Made by a program: the position numbers and the translations under genes
Shown: positions 1-14,210 of the stretch, one piece after another
How the letters are laid out: the number at the start of each line of letters is the position of its first letter
How positions within the stretch are numbered: the stretch's first letter is position 1
Assembly (NCBI GenBank): GCA_937872005.1
Contig: CALMPQ010000453.1
Span: forward strand, 1-14,210
Origin: an uncultured Propioniciclava sp.
Lineage (GTDB): Bacteria; Actinomycetota; Actinomycetes; Propionibacteriales; Propionibacteriaceae
Reading direction: 5' to 3'
DNA length: 14,210 nt
Notes under the pieces: generated by a model
Seen by the model: the letters and a program-made list of their open reading frames with translations, nothing else
The model's database searches: none
What the model was told of the DNA's origin: nothing

Positions 1-2156
1 CACCCCACCGACGCCAACGCCAGCGGCAGGACGGCCTCGGCGCCCGCGCGACGCAGCAGCCGCCCGGCGACGGCCATCGTCCAGCGCGAGTCGACCAGGT
101 CGTCGACGAGCAGCACCGGGCCGCACAGCGTCGGCAGCCGCTCGGCCATCGCCGCCGGCACCCGGAACCGCCCCCACACGTCGCGCACCCGGTAGGCCGA
201 ATTGGTCGACCCGCGCAGCGGCTCGGCGGTGGGGGAGAGCTCCAGTGGGCCGAGCAGCTCGAGGCGCCCGGCGCCGGCGATGCCGGTGGCCAGCGACTCC
301 ACCAGCCGGGGACGCCCCACGCTCGGCACCCACGCCACCGCCACCGGGCGCTGCTCCCACCCCCACCCGGCCAACACCCGGACGACGGCGCGCCCCAGTT
401 CATCGCGCACCTCGGCGTCGACCGGCCGGCCGTCGGCGTCGGACGCGAACAGCTCGCGCAGCCGCCCACCCCAGCCCAGGTCGGTGAGTCGGGCGACCAC
501 GCGCCCCTCCCCGACCTGCTCGGCCACGGGGATCTTGCCCTTCACCGGCTCCCCGTCCACGAGCAGGCCGAGCGTGTCGAGCCCCGTTGGCCACAGCGCG
601 CGCGGCGCGATCGGGACGCCCACGTGGTCGAGGGTCTGCTGGGCCCGATCGAGCACCGGCACGGTCACCGCGGTCGGGTACCAAGGCCCCGTGCAGGTGT
701 CGCACCGGCCGCACGGGGCGGCGTGCGGGTCGTCGAGGGCCTCGGTCAGGAACGCCATCCGGCACTCCCCGGGCCCGAGGCGTTCGTAGGCGAGCATCGC
801 CTCCTGCTCGGCGACCCGCGCCGCGGCGACCCGCTCGTAGCGCTCGGTGTCGTAGACCCACGGCCGCCCGGTCGCGACCCACCCGCCCTGCACCGCCTCG
901 ACCGCCCCATCGACGGCCAGCACCTTGAGCAGGAGCTCCAGCGGGCCGCGACGCAGGTCGACCCGCGCCTCCAGCGCGGGCACGGACAACGGGCGGTCCG
1001 CTTCGGCCAGCGCGCCCAGCACCGCGTCGGCCTTCGCCTGCGTGGGCATCGCGTTGGTCGCGAACCAGTGCCAGATCTCCCGATCCTCCACCCCCGGCAG
1101 GAGGAGGACGTCGGCGTTCGGCGTCCCACGGCCGGCGCGGCCCACCTGCTGGTAGTACGCGACCGGTGAACTCGGCGCTCCGACGTGCACGACGAACCCG
1201 AGGTCGGGCTTGTCGAAGCCCATGCCCAGCGCCGAGGTGGCGATGAGGGCCTTGACCTCGTTGCGCTTGAGCGCCTCCTCGGCCGCCTCGCGCTCGGCCG
1301 CGTCGGTGCGCCCGGTGTAGGGCAGCACCCGATGGCCTGCCTTGGCGAGCAGCGCCGCGGCATCCTCCGCGGCGGAGACGGTCAGGCAGTAGACGATGCC
1401 GCTGCCGGGCAGGGTGTCCAGGTGTTCGGCGAGCCAGGCCAGCCGCCGGGCGGGGGTGCCCAGGTCGAGGACGCCCAGCCGAAGCGATGCCCGCGCCAGC
1501 GCCCCGCGCAGGGTGAAGACCTCGTGGCCGCCGGCGGCCATCTGCTCTGCGACGTCGGCCACCACGCGCTCGTTGGCGGTGGCGGTCGTCGCCAGCACCG
1601 GGACGCCGCCGGGCAGCTCGGCGATCAGGTCCCGGATGCGCCGGTAGTCGGGGCGGAAGTCGTGGCCCCAGTCGCTGATGCAGTGCGCCTCGTCGATGAC
1701 CAGCAGCCCGCACCGGTCAACCAGCGTCGGCAGCTGCTCGGAGCGGAACCGGGGGTTCACCAGCCGTTCGGGCGATACGAACAGCACGTCGACCGCGTCG
1801 TCGGCCAGGAGCTGCTCGATGGCACGCCACTCGGTGACGTTGGCCGAGTTGATCGCCGCGGCCCGGACGCCGGCCCGCTCCGCCGCCGCCACCTGGTCGC
1901 GCATCAGCGCCAGCAGGGGTGAGACGATGAGAGCCGGCCCCGAGCCCGCCCGGCGCTGCAGGAGCGCGGCGATGAAATAGACCGCCGACTTGCCCCACCC
2001 GGTGCGCTGCACCACCAGCGCCCGTTCGTGTCGGGCGACGAGTGCCTCGATCGCCTCGAACTGGCCGGGGTGGAAGGTGGCGTCGGGGCGTCCGGTCAGG
2101 TCGCGGAGGACCGCGAGGGCCTGCTCGGCCAGCGGGGGTGTCATCGTTGCTGCCAT
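1..2156 (-). CDS. RecQ-family ATP-dependent DNA helicase with C-terminal phosphoribosyltransferase-like domain (3' end beyond window)
   Basis: An open frame runs 718 codons from ATG 2156 to the window edge without a stop, so the C-terminus is missing. Superfamily-2 helicase motifs are in order: motif 0 FHPGQFEAI (28-36), Walker A RTGWGKS (51-57), DEAH box VIDEAHCISDWGHDFRP (153-169), motif III ATTATAN (189-195), and motif VI YYQQVGRAGRG (334-344). A RecQ-type zinc site follows (C465, then CGRCDTC at 482-488). Such enzymes unwind DNA 3' to 5' with ATP. From about 590 the protein resembles ComF-type phosphoribosyltransferases, with a PRPP-loop-like VLLVDDLVDSRWT (681-693). This domain pairing is, to my knowledge, common in actinobacterial RecQ-like proteins; the role of the tail is unknown. 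Upstream, only a poor GGCGGA precedes ATG 2156, and a second in-frame ATG lies at 2144; translation may be leaderless. The gene is divergent from the FMN reductase gene. Confidence 0.93.
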   Translation of the reverse strand, partial: MAATMTPPLAEQALAVLRDLTGRPDATFHPGQFEAIEALVARHERALVVQRTGWGKSAVYFIAALLQRRAGSGPALIVSPLLALMRDQVAAAERAGVRAAAINSANVTEWRAIEQLLADDAVDVLFVSPERLVNPRFRSEQLPTLVDRCGLLVIDEAHCISDWGHDFRPDYRRIRDLIAELPGGVPVLATTATANERVVADVAEQMAAGGHEVFTLRGALARASLRLGVLDLGTPARRLAWLAEHLDTLPGSGIVYCLTVSAAEDAAALLAKAGHRVLPYTGRTDAAEREAAEEALKRNEVKALIATSALGMGFDKPDLGFVVHVGAPSSPVAYYQQVGRAGRGTPNADVLLLPGVEDREIWHWFATNAMPTQAKADAVLGALAEADRPLSVPALEARVDLRRGPLELLLKVLAVDGAVEAVQGGWVATGRPWVYDTERYERVAAARVAEQEAMLAYERLGPGECRMAFLTEALDDPHAAPCGRCDTCTGPWYPTAVTVPVLDRAQQTLDHVGVPIAPRALWPTGLDTLGLLVDGEPVKGKIPVAEQVGEGRVVARLTDLGWGGRLRELFASDADGRPVDAEVRDELGRAVVRVLAGWGWEQRPVAVAWVPSVGRPRLVESLATGIAGAGRLELLGPLELSPTAEPLRGSTNSAYRVRDVWGRFRVPAAMAERLPTLCGPVLLVDDLVDSRWTMAVAGRLLRRAGAEAVLPLALASVG

Positions 2157-2229
2157 GTCCGCCACTGTTGCACGCGGCCCTGACAAAATTCCCTCCGTCT
2201 CTCCCCTGTCGGGGTGACCGGCCGTGTCC

Positions 2230-2235
2230 TAGGGT
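2230..2235 (+). promoter_or_regulatory. Candidate -10 element (TAGGGT) for the FMN reductase gene
   Basis: TAGGGT fits the actinobacterial TAnnnT -10 pattern and sits in the 127-bp divergent gap, about 50 bp before the GTG start. No good -35 hexamer is seen at 17 bp spacing. A start near 2242 would place a perfect 13-bp palindrome at the beginning of the leader. Confidence 0.35.
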
Positions 2236-2242
2236 GCCGTCT

Positions 2243-2255
2243 GGGCACTGTGCCC
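2243..2255. promoter_or_regulatory. 13-bp perfect palindrome, candidate operator or leader hairpin
   Basis: GGGCAC-T-GTGCCC has two perfect 6-bp arms around a single base. It lies between the candidate -10 and the ribosome-binding site of the FMN reductase gene, where a repressor could act. In RNA it could fold only as a small 5-bp hairpin. In GC-rich DNA such short palindromes also arise by chance. Confidence 0.25.
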
Positions 2256-2269
2256 GAGCCTCCCTGATG

Positions 2270-2275
2270 AAGGAG
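2270..2275 (+). promoter_or_regulatory. Ribosome-binding site fixing the GTG start at 2284
   Basis: AAGGAG lies 8 nt before GTG 2284. No ATG in the same frame gives the conserved N-terminal beta strand, so the site supports the GTG start. Confidence 0.75.
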
Positions 2276-2283
2276 AACCCATC

Positions 2284-2841
2284 GTGACCTACCGCGTCGG
2301 ATACTTCGTTGGCAGCCTGTCGAAGGAGTCCATCAACCGCGTCCTCGCCAACGCGATCATCTCGGTCGCACCCGAGGACCTGGAGTTCTTCGAGATCGGC
2401 ATCGGCGACCTGCCGCTGTACAACCGTGACCTCGACGGCAACTACCCCGCCGAGGCCGTGGCGCTCAAGGACGCCATCCACAGCGCCCACGCGATCCTGT
2501 TCGTGACCCCGGAGTACAACCGCTCGATCCCGGGCGCGCTGAAGAACGCCATCGACTGGGCGTCGCGCCCCTGGGGTGAGAACGCGTTCGTCAACATGCC
2601 GGTCGCCGTCATCGGTGCCTCGCCGGGCAACATCGGCACGGCGGTGGTGCAGCAGAGCCTGCGCGCGGTGCTGAGCTTCCTCAACACCCGCCAGATGACC
2701 TCGCCCGAGGCGTACTGCTCCTACGACGAGGCCGACTTCCTCCCCGAACTGTCGGACCGCACGCGCGAGTTCCTGGGGGGCTTCATCACCGAGTTCCGCG
2801 ACCACATCGAGCGCGTGCTCACCGTGCTGCCGCGGCACTGA
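2284..2841 (+). CDS. NADPH-dependent FMN reductase / NAD(P)H oxidoreductase (flavodoxin-like)
   Basis: A 185-residue protein, the usual length for this flavodoxin-fold family, which reduces FMN or small electrophiles such as quinones with NAD(P)H in the cytoplasm. The phosphate-binding loop of FMN is GSLSKESINR (10-19). The family signature TPEYNRSIPGALKNAIDW (75-92) is intact, followed by the second flavin loop VIGASPGNIGT (109-119). The GTG start is set by AAGGAG 8 nt upstream. The gene stands alone: it is divergent from the helicase gene and followed by a strong terminator before the Nramp-like gene. The physiological substrate cannot be told from the sequence; azoreductase, quinone reductase and chromate reductase activities all occur in this family. 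Confidence 0.95.
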   Translation: MTYRVGYFVGSLSKESINRVLANAIISVAPEDLEFFEIGIGDLPLYNRDLDGNYPAEAVALKDAIHSAHAILFVTPEYNRSIPGALKNAIDWASRPWGENAFVNMPVAVIGASPGNIGTAVVQQSLRAVLSFLNTRQMTSPEAYCSYDEADFLPELSDRTREFLGGFITEFRDHIERVLTVLPRH

Positions 2842-2853
2842 CGAGCCCTCCGA

Positions 2854-2886
2854 CGGCCCGGACGCCCAGCGTCCGGGCCGTTCTCA
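2854..2886 (+). terminator. Rho-independent-type terminator after the FMN reductase gene
   Basis: A perfect 12-bp stem (2854-2865 with 2869-2880) closes a 3-nt loop and starts 12 nt after the stop codon. The trailing TTCTCATGTTGTT is only moderately T-rich, which is usual for GC-rich actinobacteria. Confidence 0.8.
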
Positions 2887-2888
2887 TG

Positions 2889-2917
2889 TTGTTGGCGAAT
2901 TGTTCACCAGCTGTAAC
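2889..2917 (+). promoter_or_regulatory. Candidate promoter of the Nramp-like gene
   Basis: TTGTTG (2889-2894) and TGTAAC (2912-2917) are separated by exactly 17 bp and lie just past the preceding terminator. This stretch is noticeably more AT-rich than its surroundings. Transcription would start near 2924, giving a leader of about 65 nt. TACGTT at 2939-2944 is an alternative -10. Confidence 0.4.
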
Positions 2918-2930
2918 ACGTAGTGGGTTG

Positions 2931-2946
2931 AGAACCGATACGTTCT
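2931..2946. promoter_or_regulatory. Inverted repeat AGAAC-N6-GTTCT, candidate operator
   Basis: Two 5-bp arms lie just downstream of the predicted start of the Nramp-like transcript, a usual place for a repressor. The 6-bp spacer does not fit the actinobacterial LexA box, which has GAAC-N4-GTTC. No regulator can be named. Confidence 0.25.
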
Positions 2947-2977
2947 TTTCGGCGCATCAACCGGTGGCGCTGACTTC

Positions 2978-2987
2978 GAGGAGGAGG
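2978..2987 (+). promoter_or_regulatory. Ribosome-binding site fixing the GTG start at 2992
   Basis: GAGGAGGAGG ends 4 nt before GTG 2992; its first AGGAGG copy gives a more usual gap of about 7 nt. It is the strongest Shine-Dalgarno match in the window. Confidence 0.7.
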
Positions 2988-2991
2988 TCTC

Positions 2992-4302
2992 GTGAGCGAG
3001 CCCATCGATGACGGCCGGAAGGCCGGCCACCACGAACGGGTGGACGACGACGGTGGCGCCGTCGCCAAGTGGAAGATCATCGGCCCCGGCATCGTGGTCG
3101 CCGGCACCGGCGTGGGAGCGGCCGACATGGTCGCCACCCTGGTCGCCGGGTCGCGCTACGGCTACATGCTGTTGTGGGCGGTCATCGTCGGCGTGATCCT
3201 GAAGATCGTCCTCGTCGAGGGTGCGGGTCGTTACTCGCTGGCGACCGGCTACACGATGTTCGAGGGCTGGCGCCGCCTCGGCAAGTGGACCACGTGGTAC
3301 TTCGCCCCCTACATCGTGATCTGGGGCTTCGTCTACGGCGCGTCGGCGATGTCGTCGACCGCGCTCCCGATGGCGGCGCTCTTCCCGCAGGTCCCGCTGG
3401 TGGTGTTCGCCATCGCGACCGGACTGGTGGGCTTCCTGCTCGTGTGGTTCAACCATTACGCCATCGTCGAGAAGGTCACGGCCGCCCTGGTCGGCATGAT
3501 GTTCATCACCATCGTCGCCCTGGCGGTCATCGCCATGCCGAACATCCCGGAGATGCTGGGCGGGCTGGTCCCGCGCCTGCCCGACGACCCCAACGGCATC
3601 ATGTACACCCTCGCCCTCGCGGGTGGCGTCGGCGGCACCATCACGCTCGCGGCCTACGGCTACTGGCTGCGCGAGAAGGGCTGGTACACGCCCAAGTGGA
3701 TGAAGGTCATGCGCATCGACAACACGATGGCCTACGTCATCACGGGCATCTTCGTGGTCTCCATGCTGATCGTGGGTGCCGAGGTGGTTCGCGCCGCCGG
3801 CGTGACCCTGAGCGCCGGTGACAAGGGCCTGCTGGACCTCGAGGTCGCGCTCGAGGCACGCTACGGCGCGTTCGTCGGCAAGGCCTTCCTCGTCGGCTTC
3901 TGGGCCGCGGCGTTCAGCTCGGTCATCGGCGTGTGGAACGGCGTCTCGCTGATGTTCGCCGACTTCATGGGGCGCATGCGGGGCCTGCCCGACGGCCACC
4001 CCGACACCCGGGTGGGCGGCAAGTACTTCAAGTGGTATCTGATCTGGCTGACCTTCCCGCCCATGGTGCTGCTGTTCCTCAACCAGCCCATCGGGCTGAT
4101 CCTCGCCTACGGCGTGCTCGGTGCCCTCTTCATGCCGTTCATGGCGGTCGCCAACCTCGGCCTGCTGAACGGCAAGCACATCCCGAAGGAGTGGAAGAAC
4201 AACCTCATCCAGAACATCGCGCTCGGCATCACCGCGCTGCTGTTCGTGATCCTGGGCGTCTACCAGTTGTGGAACGCGATCCAGCAGGTCCTGCCCAAGT
4301 AG
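2992..4302 (+). CDS. Nramp-superfamily (SLC11-like) membrane transporter lacking canonical metal-binding motifs
   Basis: A 436-residue polytopic membrane protein with a charged N-terminal tail (1-28) and about 11 predicted helices, the Nramp size and layout. Helix 1 begins GPGIVVAGTGVGAADM (31-46), and the helix 6 region is LAGGVGGTITLAAYGYW (209-225). Classical Nramp proteins bind Mn2+/Fe2+ through a DPGN motif in helix 1 and an MPH motif in helix 6. Both are absent here, replaced by glycine-rich segments. Homologues of this type are usually annotated as Nramp family divalent metal transporters, but the substrate is unproven and may not be a transition metal. The GTG start follows a strong GAGGAGGAGG. 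The gene has its own candidate promoter after a terminator, with a possible operator in the leader. Confidence 0.88.
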   Translation: MSEPIDDGRKAGHHERVDDDGGAVAKWKIIGPGIVVAGTGVGAADMVATLVAGSRYGYMLLWAVIVGVILKIVLVEGAGRYSLATGYTMFEGWRRLGKWTTWYFAPYIVIWGFVYGASAMSSTALPMAALFPQVPLVVFAIATGLVGFLLVWFNHYAIVEKVTAALVGMMFITIVALAVIAMPNIPEMLGGLVPRLPDDPNGIMYTLALAGGVGGTITLAAYGYWLREKGWYTPKWMKVMRIDNTMAYVITGIFVVSMLIVGAEVVRAAGVTLSAGDKGLLDLEVALEARYGAFVGKAFLVGFWAAAFSSVIGVWNGVSLMFADFMGRMRGLPDGHPDTRVGGKYFKWYLIWLTFPPMVLLFLNQPIGLILAYGVLGALFMPFMAVANLGLLNGKHIPKEWKNNLIQNIALGITALLFVILGVYQLWNAIQQVLPK

Positions 4303-7722: not shown

Positions 7723-9022
7723 ATGCGACGTCGCGAGCGGGTGGGGTTCTCCGCGGCCGGGTTCGGGCAGAACCTCGTCCTCAACGTGGTCACGCTGTTC
7801 CTGCTGGTCTACCTCGTCGAGGGGTGGGCCTGTCGACGGCCGGGATCGCGAAGGCCACTGCGATCCTCGGTGCCGCCAAGGTGTGGGACGCCGTGACCGA
7901 CGTCCTGCTCGGCCTCGTCGTCGACCGCACCCGGACGCGCTGGGGTCGGTTCCGCCCCTACATCCTCCTCACCGCCGCGCCCATCGCCGCGCTGACGGTC
8001 GCTCTGTTCCACCTGCCGCCCGGCTCGGAGGATGCCCGTCTGGCCTGGTTCGGCGTGCTCTACGTGTTGTGGTCGATGGCCTACACGCTGTGCGATGTGC
8101 CCTACTGGGCGATGACCAACGTCGTCACGACTGACGACGCCGACCGCACCCGCCTCATCGCGTGGGCGCGCACGGCCGGCGTCCTCGCCCTCGCGGCGGT
8201 CACCCTGGCCGGCGTGCCCCTCGCGCGGGCGCTGAGCTTCGGCCCCGTGGCCACCGAGGCCGGGTGGGGACGCCTCGCGATCGTGGCGTCCGTGGTCGGG
8301 ATGGGATTGTTCACGCTCGCCTTCTTCGCCACCACCGAGGAGGTGCAGGCAAGCACGCCACCGCCACTGCGCGAAGGCCTCGCCCTGGTGACCCGCAACC
8401 CCGGCCTGCTGTGGTTGCTCGCCTCGGGCGTGCTGGGCTTCGGGCGGTTCGTGCTGCAGGTCGGCGGCGTCGTGCTCGCTCTGGTCGTCTTCGGCGACGA
8501 GGGCTTCTTCACGCTGCTGGGCGCGGCGCTCATCGCGTCGATGGTGGTGGCGACCCTCGCCACCCCGGCGCTGCTGCGCCGGATGACCCGCAAGGCGTTG
8601 ATGATCGGCTCCAGCGCGGTCGCCGCGGCCGTCTACCTGGTGCAGTGGTTCGTGGGGTACGCCGTCCTGCCCGCGGTGATCGCGTGCGTGGCGCGACCGG
8701 CCTGCTGCTGGGCGTGTTCATGGTCACTCAGACGACCATGATCGGGGATGCCGCCGACGACGGCGAGCGTCGCACCGGCCAGCGCATGGACGGCATCGCC
8801 TTCGCCGGGCTGACCTTCGTGGGCAAGCTTTCGGGTGCCGTGGCGACCATCGTGTTCGGGTTGGCGGTGGCGGCGATCGGCTACAGCAAGGGCGTCCCGG
8901 TGACGCCGGCGATGCGCGACGGGTTGTGGGCGGCGGTCACGCTGGTGCCGGCGGCGTCGGTCGCGTTGAGCATCCTGCCCCTGCTGGCCTACCGCGTCCC
9001 CGAACGCGCTGCGACCGGTTGA
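7723..9022 (+). CDS. MelB-like GPH-family sugar:cation symporter, two frameshifts as written
   Basis: The gene is read in three frames: ATG 7723 to about 7824, about 7824 to 8692, and about 8692 to TGA 9022. One added base at each junction (a G in the GGGGTGGG at 7821-7828, and a G or C near 8691-8694) restores a 433-residue, roughly 12-helix protein of normal family length. The family signature follows the first junction: KVWDAVTDVLLG (53-64), then DRTRTRWGRFRPY (68-80). Asp56 and Asp60 correspond to the cation-binding Asp55 and Asp59 of MelB. The family imports oligosaccharides and glycosides with Na+ or H+ across the cytoplasmic membrane. The convergent alpha-mannosidase gene suggests a mannoside substrate (inference). 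Either the gene is decayed or, more likely, the sequence has missing bases. The stop lies inside the 3' end of the mannosidase gene. Confidence 0.85.
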
Positions 9023-11712
9023 CCGAGACCCGCAACGTCTTCAGCTCGAACGGCCCGAACCGCAGGTCATCGAGGTCGGCGGGGCTCGTCACGCGCTCGA
9101 GCAGGTCGGCCTCGTCGACGCCCACGATGGGCAGGGTGCTGGTGAGGCGTCCGGTCGCCGCGCGGCCCCGGGCCTCGTGGAGGCGCAGGATGAGGGCGTC
9201 CCCGTCCTCGGCGACCTTGACGGCCGCCAACTGCACGCCCGGGGCGTCCACGGTGAAGACCGGCTCGCGCGGAGCGGCCCGGCCCACCAGCACGGGCTGG
9301 TTGAGGTGGGCGGCGTGGGCGGGGGTGTCGGCGTCCTCGACCGGCCCGGCGTGCGGGAACAGCGCGTAGGTGAACCGGTGCCGGCCCTGGTCGGCGCTCG
9401 GGTCGGGGTAGATCGGCGCGCGCAGGAGGTTGAGCGAGAGGACGCCGTCCTTGGCCCGGTGGCCGTACTTGGAGTCGTTGAGCAGGCTCAGCCCGCCCGC
9501 CGCGTCGGACACGTCGACCCAGCGGTGGGCGCAGACCTCGTACTGCGCGCGCTCGACCGACGTGTCGTTGCGCGTGCTGCGCCGGTGGTGGCCGTACTGG
9601 ATTTCGCACGCCACCTCATCCGCCCACGGCGCGGGCCGGAACTCGGCGCGCAGCATGCGGTGCCGCTCGTGCCAGTCGACGGTGGTCTCGAAGGACAGGA
9701 AGCGCTGGCCGGGGGTGAGTACGGCGTCCTGGGTGAGGGTGGTGCGGCCGTGGCGGTAGTGGCTGCGCCGGACCGCGCGCGGCCCGTCGAGGAACGTCTC
9801 GACGCGGGTCGGCCGCAGCACATCGGTGGGGCGGTCGAGGTAGTCGGCGTTGATGTCCCAGGCGTCGAAGTAGCTCCAGGGGTCGCGGTGCACGACGAGC
9901 CGGTTCAGGCCCTCGCCGGCGTGCTCGATGCCCGTGGCCAGGTCGACCAGGGAGGTCGGCTCGCCACCCGGCCCCACGTGGCCCGCAGGTGCTCGTTGCT
10001 GAGCGTGTCGGCGGTGACGCGCGCCGACTCCCCGCGCCACGGGGTGCAGGACGCCGTCGCGAACGGTGCGACCGCGTAGGCCCACCAGCGGTCCTCGGCC
10101 CGGACGAAGCCCGCGCGAGGCGTGGGCAGCGTGTTCGTGACGGTCGGTGACTCGGCGGCACCGGCGAGGTGTTCGTCGATGAGCGCGGTCAGCGCGTCGT
10201 GGATCTCGGCGTAGCGGGGCTCGGCCTCGTCGTGGACCCGTGTGATCGACGACCCGGGCAGGATGTCGTGGAACTGGAACAGCAGCAGGTCCCGCCACGC
10301 CGCGTCGAGGGCCGCGCGCGGGTAGTCGCCGCCGGCGGCCCAGGCCAGGGCGGCGAGGTGTTCGAGGTCGTGGAGTCGCTCCTCGACGCGGCGGTTCCAC
10401 CGCTTGGTGGCCGCCTGCGTGGTGAACGTGCCCTGGTGCTTCTCGAGATAGAGCTCGCCGCGCCAGACCGGCAGCGCATCGCGGTGGGTGGCGAGCCGGG
10501 TGAAGAAGTCGGCCGACGTGCCGTACGCGACGCGCGGGAAGCCCTCGAGCGAGCCCAGGCGCCTGACGAGCTCCAGGTGGGTGCGGCCTGGCCCGCCCCC
10601 GCCATCGCCGGTGCCGAACAGCAGCAGGGCCTCGGGGGCGGCGTCCCGCTCGGGGTACTTGGTGGTGAGGTCGACCAGCGACAGGGGCGTGGCCGAGGAG
10701 TTGTAGGTGCCCTCCGGTGGCATGTGGACGAGCACCTGCGAGCCGTCGATGCCCTCCCAGACGAAGCTGCGGTGGGGGAAGTCGTTGTGCTCGTTCCAGC
10801 TCAGCTTGATGGTGAGGAAGTTGGACATGCCCGCCTTGGCGAGGAGCTGCGGGAGGTTGGCGTTGTAGCCGAACACGTCGGGCAGCCAGCAGGTCTCCAT
10901 GAGCCGCCCCACGTGCTGCTCGAACCAGCGCTGCCCGTACAGCGCCTGCCGCACGATCGACTCCCCCGAGGGCAGGTTCATGTCGGGTTCGACCCACAGC
11001 CCGCCCTGGGGTTCGAGGCGTCCGGACGCCGCGGCCTCCCGTACCTGCGCGAACAGGTCGGGGTGCTCCGATGCCAGCCACGCCCACTGCTGCGGCTGGG
11101 AGCTGCCGTAGACGTAGTCGGGGTCGGCGGCGAGGTTGCCGAGCTGGTGGGTGAACGTGCGGCGGGCCTTGCGGTGGGTCTCGCGCAGGGGCCACAACCA
11201 GGCCAGGTCGAGGTGCCCGTGGCCGATCGCGGTGACGCGCACGGGGGCACCAGCTTGCCGTTGAAGCCGGCGTCGAACCACAGGTCGAGGCGGCCGCCGG
11301 GGGCGAGCTCGGGGGTGACGGCGAGGGCGGTCTTGCCGCGCGCGGCGCCGAGCTGCTCGATGGGCGTCACGCGGCTGGACACGGCCCCAACGGGGGTGCC
11401 GTCGGGCAGCAGCACCATCGCCTCGCCGTCGAGGTCGGCGATGAGAACCGGCCGGGTGCCCGGCGGGGCGGTGGGGACGTCGGCCGTGACGTGGAACCAG
11501 GCGCACGTGAAGGCGGTGCCCCACACGGTCCCTCGCCGGGCCGCTCGGTGGGGCAGGGTGAGGCGCTGGTCGAACGGCACCGGTTCGTCGGAGGTGGCGA
11601 TGGTGGCCCCGACGGCGGCCAGGGGCGTCGTGATCGCAGCGCGGAGCCGGCGCAGTTGGGCGAGCAGCCACGGGTGGCGGGCGATGGAGAGCTCGGCGAT
11701 CTCGAACGGCAT
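8937..11712 (-). CDS. GH38 alpha-mannosidase, two frameshifts as written
   Basis: Three frames together encode a glycoside hydrolase family 38 alpha-mannosidase of about 925 residues. Junctions lie at the G5 run 11243-11247 and the C4 run 9972-9975; adding one base to each gives a continuous frame. The protein starts at ATG 11712, preceded by GAAGGA. In the repaired protein the zinc ligands are H167 and D169 (GHGHLDLAWLWP), D279 in CWLPDVFGY, which is also the family's nucleophile, and H482 in QFHDILPGS. The C-terminal beta-rich domain is present, ending near FELKTLRV. No signal peptide is seen, so it is probably cytosolic and acts on imported mannosides. The last 30 or so residues are low-complexity and antisense to the symporter 3' end; a further missing base near the end would give an earlier stop at 8989. 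Confidence 0.9.
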
Positions 11713-11745
11713 GTCCTGATCCTTCCGTCCCGCCGACGATCCCGC

Positions 11746-11770: not shown

Positions 11771-11776
11771 GGGAGG
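11771..11776 (+). promoter_or_regulatory. Ribosome-binding site selecting ATG 11782
   Basis: GGGAGG ends 5 nt before ATG 11782. The in-frame GTG at 11776 overlaps this site, so it is unlikely to be the true start. Confidence 0.65.
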
Positions 11777-11781
11777 TGGGC

Positions 11782-14210
11782 ATGGTCAAGCGGTTGCTGG
11801 GTTGGCCCGTGCTGCGCCAGCTCTCCACCGGCGACTGGCTGGGCCGCGGCCCGGCGGTCACCTCTCCACGAACGGACGCCGCGGGCGCGCGCACCTCGAC
11901 CGCCGACCGGGTCGTGCAGAGCGTCTGCCCCTACTGTGCGGTGGGCTGTGGCCAGCGGATCTTCGTGCGCGACGAGGAGATCATCCAGATCGAGGGCGAT
12001 CCCGACTCGCCCATCAGCCGCGGCAGGCTGTGCCCGAAGGGGTCGGCGTGCGAGCAGTTGGTGAACTCGCCCCGGCGCGTGACGACGGTGCGCTACCGGC
12101 GCCCGTTCGGCACGCAGTGGGAGGACCTCTCGCTCGCCGAGGCGACCGACATGATCGCCGACCGGTTCGTGTCCGCGCGGCACGACTACTGGCAGGCCGA
12201 GGACCCCGACGGCAACCGCCTCGACCGCACGATGGGCATCGCGTCGCTGGGCGGCGCGACGCTGGACAACGAGGAGAACTACCTCATCAAGAAGCTGTTC
12301 ACGGCGGCCGGCGCGATCCAGATCGAGAATCAGGCGCGGATATGACACTCCGCCACGGTCCCCGGTCTGGGGGCCTCGTTCGGGCGGGGAGGCGCCACCC
12401 AGTACCTCCAGGACCTCGCGGAATCTGACTGCATCGTCATCATGGGCTCCAACATGGCCGAGTGCCACCCGGTGGGCTTCCAGTGGGTGACCGAGGCGAA
12501 GCTGCGCGGGGCGCGGGTGGTGCACGTCGACCCGCGGTTCACGCGCACGTCGGCGCAGGCTGATCGGCACATCCCGATCCGGGCAGGCTCCGACATCGTG
12601 CTGCTCGGGGCGCTGGTCAACCATGTGCTCACCAACGAGCTGTGGTTCCGTGAGTACGTGCTCGCCTACACCAACGCCACGTCGGTGATCTCGGCCGACT
12701 TCGTGGGTGCCGAGGACCTCGACGGGATCTTCTCGGGCTACGACCCCGAGTTGCGCGAGTACGACCCCTCCTCGTGGGCCTACGCCGAGGAAGGGGGCGG
12801 CACGGTGCCCGACGACCCGCCCGACCCCGACGTGGCCGAGGGGCAGTCCTACGGCGAGGGCGGACTGCCGCTGGAGAACCACCGCATCCGCAAGGACCCG
12901 ACGCTGACCGACCCGCGCTGCGTGCTCAACCTGCTGCGCCGCCACTACGCGCGCTACACCCCCGAGCTGGTCGCCGAGACCTGCGGCATCAGCGTCGAGG
13001 ACTTCGCGTACCTCGCCGACTCGATCACCGCGAACTCGGGGCGCGAGCGCACCACATCCTTCTGCTACGCGGTGGGCTGGACGCAGCACTCCTCGGGCGC
13101 CCAGGTCATCCGCGCCGCGGCCATCCTGCAGCTGCTGCTGGGCAACATGGGACGCCCCGGCGGCGGCATCATGGCGCTGCGCGGTCACGCGTCGATCCAG
13201 GGCTCCACCGACATCCCGACCCTGTACAACCTGCTGCCCGGCTACCTGCCGATGCCGGCGGCGGGTCGGACGGCCACGTTGGGGACGTACCTGGACGCCA
13301 TCTCGAGCAAGCGCCAGAAGGGCTACTGGGCCAACGCGGATGCGTATGTGGCCTCGCTCCTGAAGGCTTGGTTCGGTGACGCCGCCACGCCCGAGAACGA
13401 CTTCTGCTTCGACCACCTGCCCAAGCTGACCGGCGCCCACGGCACCTACCAGACCGTGCTCTCGATGCTGGACGGCGGGGTGGCCGGCTACTTCGTGCTC
13501 GGCCAGAACCCGGCGGTCGGGTCAGCGCACGCGCGGTTGCAGCGGCTCGCCCTGGCCAAGCTCGACTGGCTCGTGGTGCGCGACCTGCAGCTGATCGAGA
13601 CCGCGACCTTCTGGAAGGACGCCCCCGAGATCGCCACCGGCGAGTTGGTGACCGAGGACATCGGCACGGAGGTGTTCTTCCTGCCCGCGGCGTCCTATGC
13701 CGAGAAGTCCGGCACGTTCACCCAGACCCAGCGGCTGCTGCAGTGGCGGCATCAGGCGGTCGCCCCGCCGGGCGACTGCCAGAGCGAGCTCGACTTCTTC
13801 CACGTGCTGGGCCAGAAGATCCGCGCGCGGCTGGCCGGGTCGACCGACCCCCGTGACCGCCCCCTGCTCGACCTGACCTGGGACTACCCGGTCGACGAGC
13901 ACGGCGACGTCGACCCCGAGGCGGTGCTGCGCGAGATCAACGGGTACGACGGGTCGGGGGAGCTGGTCGACACCTTCAACCAGCTGCGCGCCGACGGCTC
14001 CACGAGCAGTGGCTGCTGGATCTACGCCGGCGTCTTCGCCGGCGACGTCAACCGCTCGGCCCTGAGGGTGCCCGGCGGGGGAGGTGGACGGACGGCGTCC
14101 GAATGGGGCTGGGCGTGGCCGGCGAACCGCCGCGTGCTCTACAACCGCGCCTCAGCCGACCCCGACGGGCGCCCGTGGAGTGAGCGCAAGAAGTTCGTCT
14201 GGTGGGACGA
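11782..14210 (+). CDS. fdhA: Formate dehydrogenase alpha (catalytic) subunit, selenocysteine-containing, FdnG/FdoG type (3' end beyond window)
   Basis: A molybdopterin enzyme that oxidises formate to CO2. The frame from ATG 11782 runs 809 codons to the window edge with a single internal TGA, codon 188, within NQARI-U-HSATV, the family's Sec-His active site. The [4Fe-4S] ligands are C49, C52, C56 and C84 (CPYCAVGC, then GRLCPKG). After the TGA come FGRGGATQY, the MGSN cofactor loop, GNMGRPGGG, and ALRGHASIQG, whose R467 matches the catalytic arginine of FDH-H. GWAWPANRRVLYNRASAD near 777-794 is typical of the long FdnG/FdoG form, which exceeds 1000 residues, so about 200 or more are missing. 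The N-terminus lacks a twin-arginine signal, which suggests a cytoplasmic enzyme. Partner iron-sulfur and membrane subunits would be expected to the right. Function needs the SelA, SelB, SelC and SelD machinery, not in this window. Confidence 0.95.
12343..12345 (+). other. In-frame UGA recoded as selenocysteine (Sec188)
   Basis: The TGA sits exactly at the catalytic Sec/Cys position of formate dehydrogenases, is followed at once by the conserved His codon, and both flanks are in one frame. The preceding codon is ATA, rare in DNA this GC-rich. A nonsense mutation or frameshift is unlikely because no base has to be added or removed. Confidence 0.93.
12346..12392 (+). promoter_or_regulatory. Bacterial SECIS element (selenocysteine insertion hairpin)
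   Basis: The upper stem pairs 12357-12363 with 12369-12375 (7 bp, one G-U) and closes a GGUCU loop (12364-12368). A lower stem pairs 12348-12354 with 12383-12389 (7 bp, one G-U). The loop begins 18 nt after the UGA. From memory, Escherichia coli fdhF has the same GGUCU loop at the same distance, where SelB binds. The folding was done by eye. Confidence 0.82.

Follow-up and report, generated by a model that had tools for sequence, protein, structure and literature searches.

The window, i.e. the whole stretch of 14,210 nucleotides that was analysed, ends inside a gene of the plus strand, fdhA, which would encode an FdnG-type formate dehydrogenase alpha subunit; the 3' end of this gene and the genes of the partner subunits lie outside. 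Its frame contains a stop codon, TGA at 12343-12345, the sole one up to the contig end, and the codon directly 5' of it is ATA (12340-12342, plus strand). If the TGA is read through, the frame comprises 811 codons from GTG 11776 or 809 from ATG 11782, and the UGA is codon 190 or 188, respectively. ATG 11782 is the likelier start, because GTG 11776 overlaps a Shine-Dalgarno-like GGGAGG (11771-11776). A lone TGA in an otherwise open frame of at least 809 codons had been claimed by the first-pass annotation, and reading through from ATG 11782 bears this out. The annotation also foresaw that standard gene calling would deliver a 187-codon fragment plus an N-truncated second gene; a table-11 scan reproduced both, the fragment starting at ATG 11782 and the second open reading frame running from ATG 12442 to the end. 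As standard calling splits or truncates fdhA in this way, it could overlook or misinterpret formate oxidation in the lineage. The features are the following:

11782-14208, plus strand: fdhA, FdnG-type formate dehydrogenase alpha subunit, 5' part (open reading frame with the TGA read through, NF041513, Pfam domains)
12340-12342, plus strand: ATA (Ile) codon preceding the predicted Sec codon; most actinobacterial Sec genes retain A/T at its third base, 12342 (codon comparison)
12343-12345, plus strand: TGA, predicted selenocysteine codon at the active-site position (sequence, relatives, PDB alignment)
12346-12356, plus strand: spacer of 11 nt from the UGA to the upper stem of the putative SECIS (sequence; equal length in E. 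coli fdnG)
12357-12363, plus strand: 5' arm of the upper stem of the putative SECIS, GGTCCCC (148 distinct and 41 divergent sequences)
12364-12368, plus strand: apical loop of the putative SECIS, GGTCT (148 distinct sequences)
12369-12375, plus strand: 3' arm of the upper stem of the putative SECIS, GGGGGCC (148 and 41 sequences; weak Rfam SECIS_3 match at 12340-12398)

The adjoining gene on the minus strand (8937-11719) is a GH38 alpha-mannosidase. It lies in at least two frames, with Pfam GH38N/mid in one and GH38C in another, and its apparent N-terminus falls in a third; an assembly error or a pseudogene may be the cause.

The window protein, although truncated, scores 1444.3 bits against NCBIfam NF041513 (formate_DH_Act; cut-off 1400; profile 2-814 of 1067) and contains the Pfam domains Molybdop_Fe4S4 (PF04879, 67 bits) and Molybdopterin (PF00384, 103 bits). 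With TIGR01553, the model of formate dehydrogenase-N alpha, the truncated protein reaches 718 bits, below the cut-off of 814; the likewise incomplete protein part from G009, a genome of the same genus, yields 708 bits. PDB entries 9qm0 and 6sdr and E. coli FdnG (1kqf) are matched by sequence with E < 1e-160. The alignments to the first two place C (9qm0) or X (6sdr) opposite the TGA codon, and these chains are named selenocysteine-containing, so that the TGA is aligned with the family's Sec position, where it had been placed from the start. The gene represents an ordinary SelB/SECIS type of selenoprotein gene; its arrangement is known and its family, NF041513, curated.

A bacterial SECIS, according to the consensus given in PMC13188914, has a loop of 3-9 nt with a G within its first two positions, a stem of 4-16 bp, 16-37 nt between UGA and loop and a minimum free energy of -7.5 kcal/mol or lower. 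The hairpin downstream of the TGA fits this geometry (loop GGTCT, 5 nt; stem, 7 bp; UGA to loop, 18 nt). Its 60-nt region, at -25.9 kcal/mol, also passes the energy limit, though with a z of 0.53 against shuffles, 138 of 200 of which fold at least as well. Rfam SECIS_3 hits the right place with 26.2 bits (E 0.041), below its gathering threshold of 63. The Rfam score and the fold energy do not prove the hairpin, because the match is weak and the stability of this GC-rich sequence is at shuffle level.

Comparison goes further. From 178 distinct sites we selected 41 TGA-type sequences such that every pair of them has at least 5 differences in 48 bases. In these, 91.6% of 287 cells are paired; sliding the partner by one base lowers pairing to at most 61%. 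Double changes fill 28 cells, against a shuffle mean of 6.0, and 0 of 500 shuffles reach 28. The pair +15/+27, which consists of two synonymous third positions, is a standard pair in 146/148 Sec sequences versus 5/21 Cys genes, and it occurs as GC, TA, CG, TG and GT across the Sec sequences. Similar contrasts are seen for +16/+26 (146/148 Sec, 0/21 Cys) and +18/+24 (145/148 Sec, 6/21 Cys). In Cys genes, too, +13/+29, +14/+28 and +17/+25 mostly remain paired (19-21 of 21). Only 108 of the 148 Sec sequences have the outermost pair, +12/+30. In the loop, G 12365 and T 12366 are identical in all 147 unambiguous sequences of the 148; this T, base +21, occurs in 1/21 Cys genes. It is by such comparison that the hairpin can be established as a SECIS: its synonymous positions covary across actinobacteria, and their pairing is lost in Cys homologues.

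The nearest named relatives, judged by best-segment identity to the window, are Enemella evansiae and Paenarthrobacter nicotinovorans (71% each) and a Propionibacterium MAG (70%); the organism probably belongs to the Propionibacteriaceae or stands close to them. Of the 57 genomes searched, G000 among them, 14 have TGA-type fdhA with the TGA at the same codon, 13 have selA above cut-off, and 12 have both. The selA count agrees with the earlier statement that the Sec pathway is patchy in actinobacteria. In G003 and G012 the TGA gene occurs with no selA over the cut-off, G012 being a draft of 330 contigs in which no selA was found; G047 has selA and lacks an FdnG-type TGA gene. In a phylum-wide sample, the motif with TGA was detected in 84 of 396 genomes, and a pattern that puts TAG or a codon for Cys, Tyr or Trp in place of the TGA matched four (two GTG-TGC, one ATT-TAC and one ATT-TGC); all these patterns admit only Ile, Met or Val ahead of the Sec codon. 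The ATT-TGC match, in G240, was rejected as a Cys formate dehydrogenase, as it lies in a 34-codon frame that is not a formate dehydrogenase. A presumed second TGA homologue in G025 (L232, C11:109500-113200) was discarded as well; it is a molybdopterin oxidoreductase, and the TGA terminates a transporter-like gene that precedes it. The FdhF-type pattern G-R-[IVM]-U-H-[S/T-like]-P-T, sought as a second Sec family, was found in 0/396 genomes. Sixteen weaker relatives' loci (L031-L046) had no motif and were left out of the counts.

Two side observations belong here. In G003, which is of the same genus, the fdh-sel locus (L158, 3900-9960) looks decaying: fdhA matches query residues 4-404 of 811 and selA positions 2-275 of 455, and a tRNA-Sec is still reported by ARAGORN. 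Further, TAG at the Sec codon together with the same hairpin is seen in five loci (L072, L083, L090, L091, L092), of which one record is titled Geodermatophilus and four Blastococcus; UAG-encoded Sec in Geodermatophilaceae was reportedly described by Mukai in 2016.

Could the TGA be a nonsense mutation or a sequencing or assembly error in a Cys-type gene, and fdhA thus a pseudogene or misread? The window is a contig of a draft assembly, and the alpha-mannosidase split over frames means that errors or pseudogenes do occur in it. However, TGA and hairpin are both present in a same-genus genome that is 86% identical, the TGA recurs at its codon in the genomes counted above, the hairpin covaries across relatives, and sel genes reside in the same genome (see below). 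TGC or TGT at 12343-12345 had been named as evidence against Sec; the assembly shows TGA. A mutation or error is, in our judgement, hardly credible, and the window's TGA is almost certainly decoded as selenocysteine.

The assembly to which the window belongs comprises 2.49 Mb in 482 contigs and is estimated to be 72% complete and 1.1% contaminated. By profile searches, a single contig of 3572 bases, C85, holds part of selB, selA, tRNA-Sec and selD. The scores are 412 bits for selA (cut-off 268), 380 bits for selD (cut-off 125) and 76 bits for the tRNA-Sec, selC (gathering 47), the anticodon of which is UCA. The selB gene ends with the contig; it covers positions 2-339 of 581 of the profile and stays, with 235 bits, just under the cut-off of 242. 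The Sec pathway that the first-pass annotation had predicted for the host is thus supported by selA, selD and selC, all over cut-off in the same genome; the genome search it had proposed stands for these three, and for selB only in part. Joint absence of selB and selC, which it had listed as counter-evidence, was not what we found, as the assembly contains the tRNA-Sec and the partial selB. A second strong SECIS was not detected among the 150 of 2002 first-look candidates of this genome that were scored with model R1: the fdhA site obtains 74 bits, the next one 17.5 bits (E 0.65).

Positions 39-3572 of the 3572 of C85 align to G009 with 79.8% identity over 3612 columns. In G009 the sel genes lie about 3 kb past the counterpart of the window's last fdhA bases; the interval is filled by the remaining fdhA, an open reading frame with an Fe-S domain (158 bits with the FDH-beta model, below the cut-off of 335) and a weak NrfD-like one (24 bits), and past the selB part comes the gene for FdhD. 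Given this alignment to the G009 sel genes close to fdhA, a single fdh-sel locus has most likely been broken into the window and C85, which we join across an unsequenced gap. Of course, C85 could have been misbinned from another organism, which would leave the host unable to insert Sec and its fdhA a dying gene. The contamination estimate of 1.1% leaves some room for this, and so do the incomplete locus of G003 and the TGA gene of G012 for which selA was not found. The near end-to-end alignment to G009 and the intact fdhA frame and hairpin in the window argue against it, and we regard misbinning as very unlikely.

The mechanism would be as follows. SelA and SelD would make Sec-tRNA(Sec); SelB-GTP, loaded with it, would bind the SECIS hairpin 11 nt downstream of the UGA; the ribosome at the UGA would receive selenocysteine and complete a full-length FdnG-type formate dehydrogenase, in which Sec would ligate Mo or W at the active site. 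Sec incorporation, the metal and catalysis we infer from sequence. That this is a selenoprotein gene in which Sec is inserted at that codon we hold with very high confidence; the reading further includes an A/U immediately 5' of the UGA that looks selected in this lineage.

This A/U deserves attention. The first-pass annotation had called the ATA before the TGA unusual. It is indeed the only ATA among the 52 Ile codons of three window open reading frames, the others being 51 ATC and 0 ATT. In 80 named actinobacterial loci and 14 loci obtained by the search for relatives, all 73 Sec genes have A/T at -1 (52 ATT, 18 ATA, 3 GTT) and all 21 Cys genes C or G (A/T 0/21). The contrast counts as one event, because the Sec/Cys switch is a single change on the tree. 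Among 156 distinct actinobacterial Sec sites, E. coli excluded, 147 have A/T at -1, while the Ile/Val codon usage of these genes predicts 15.0; the window's class contributes 13/13 in the phylum sample. Between codons -20 and +25, near-constant A/T third positions outside the Sec codon are confined to -1 (147/157, E. coli included) and +7, the T of the SECIS loop (156/157). Of the 22 Ile/Val columns conserved to at least 90%, -1 has the highest A/T content, 148/155 rows, counting Thermomicrobium and a plasmid gene; second comes the SECIS stem codon +5 with 44%, and the remaining ones do not exceed 17%. At least one row is misaligned at -1, because two columns carried the -1 mask.

The simplest objection is that A/T before the UGA is merely inherited or mutational and without function. 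The single Sec/Cys change on the tree is compatible with this, and so are the exceptions: C/G is found in 9/156 actinobacterial sites, i.e. in 9 of 87 sites of the phylum sample (8 ATC, 1 ATG, all outside the window's class), and in 6/6 proteobacterial FdnG genes with the motif, all of which have GTC. The latter derive from a scan of 12 loci, E. coli fdnG and 11 plasmid records from 60 listed of 162 matching; within it, L220, L221 and L225 have no motif and L219 is a Cys gene with GTC. One Thermomicrobium gene has ATA. The state of the base further correlates with the stem positions +15/+27, as lineage effects would. Pairing of -1 with another position was considered, as its highest mutual information is with +27 and +15, and rejected; the correlation is read as a lineage effect because +15 and +27 already pair with each other. 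Yet the base is not frozen. On a FastTree tree (L164 was too short and dropped), 10 changes between A and T stand against 5 between A/T and C/G, a ratio that is reversed in the other 15 Ile/Val columns with counts for both types of change. Nor does base composition account for it, since the 21 other conserved columns have 1-44% A/T, and in genes with a GC3 of at least 0.95, where just 26 of 1287 Ile codons end in A/T, 47 of 51 sites have A/T at -1. A base without function therefore appears doubtful to us.

A different objection concerns the codon. In GC-rich genomes, slow decoding of ATA, ATT or GTT might buy time for SelB, and the base itself would be irrelevant. Codons ending in A/T are scarce in these genes, as such pausing demands. 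On the other hand, three different codons all serve, and ATA, ATT and GTT are read by different tRNAs; at sites with a GC3 below 0.8, where these codons are less rare, A/T is still found in 11 of 12, the exception being E. coli. Base identity and codon rarity are confounded in these data, and we deem rare-codon pausing possible but unlikely.

We propose instead that A/T at -1 probably belongs to the recoding signal, as a 5' element specific to this lineage. While the ribosome sits at the UGA, the base would be the last one of the P-site codon, and A/U there might weaken termination or ease accommodation during the UGA pause. All five TAG-type genes have ATA before the Sec codon, and UAG is read by a different release factor from RF2's; a reason specific to RF2 is therefore less likely, though all five come from one family. 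With C at -1 in the window, the predicted accessibility of the UGA drops if 60 or 30 nt upstream are included and not with 15; the effect thus varies with upstream length and reveals no general structural reason. A result from PMC4513850 speaks against a role of the base: in an E. coli system in vitro, Sec was inserted, RF2 being absent, into a model mRNA whose UGA follows AUG. The same paper gives UGA recoding in E. coli as 30-40%. For the wider claim, that in most actinobacteria and, by one gene, in Thermomicrobium a bacterial Sec-recoding signal has a 5' component, A/U before UGA or UAG after Ile or Val despite strong GC pressure, we see even chances. If functional, the base would be a simple added criterion for finding actinobacterial selenoprotein genes and would pose a one-base question on how SelB-dependent decoding relates to the P-site codon. 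A statement of the -1 A/U rule was not found in searches of an open-access collection, in which most subscription papers are absent; earlier studies by Engelberg-Kulka and co-workers of the SECIS context in E. coli could bear on it.

Sec formate dehydrogenases in actinobacteria are already known, and the -1 pattern alone may be new. PMC7176365 describes selenium-dependent formate removal by an actinobacterium, A. chiangmaiensis, and in PMC5029168 a member of the Propionibacterineae is listed as the donor in a transfer of the Sec trait. PMC5330540 reports UAG-encoded Sec in Geodermatophilaceae with a tRNA-Sec of anticodon CUA. Compared with this last system, gene and hairpin are the same in the five TAG loci, whereas the window has TGA and its genome the anticodon UCA in place of TAG and CUA.

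Against NF041513 the window protein lies above the cut-off and no difference is seen in the portion present, the 3' part being outside the contig. The solved Sec formate dehydrogenases and E. coli FdnG are distant; with the E. coli homologues that the plasmid collection contains, identity is 38.6-38.8%. In contrast to the Sec formate dehydrogenases and FdnG, no RR pair is discernible by eye in the visible N-terminus, and a possible partner in G009 is NrfD-like, by the weak match mentioned. The SECIS of E. coli fdnG has the same 11-nt spacer and, at the same place, the loop AGTCT where the window has GGTCT; the window stays under the gathering score of the corresponding Rfam model, SECIS_3. The codon before the UGA also differs: the six proteobacterial fdnG genes have GTC, most actinobacterial ones ATA, ATT or GTT.
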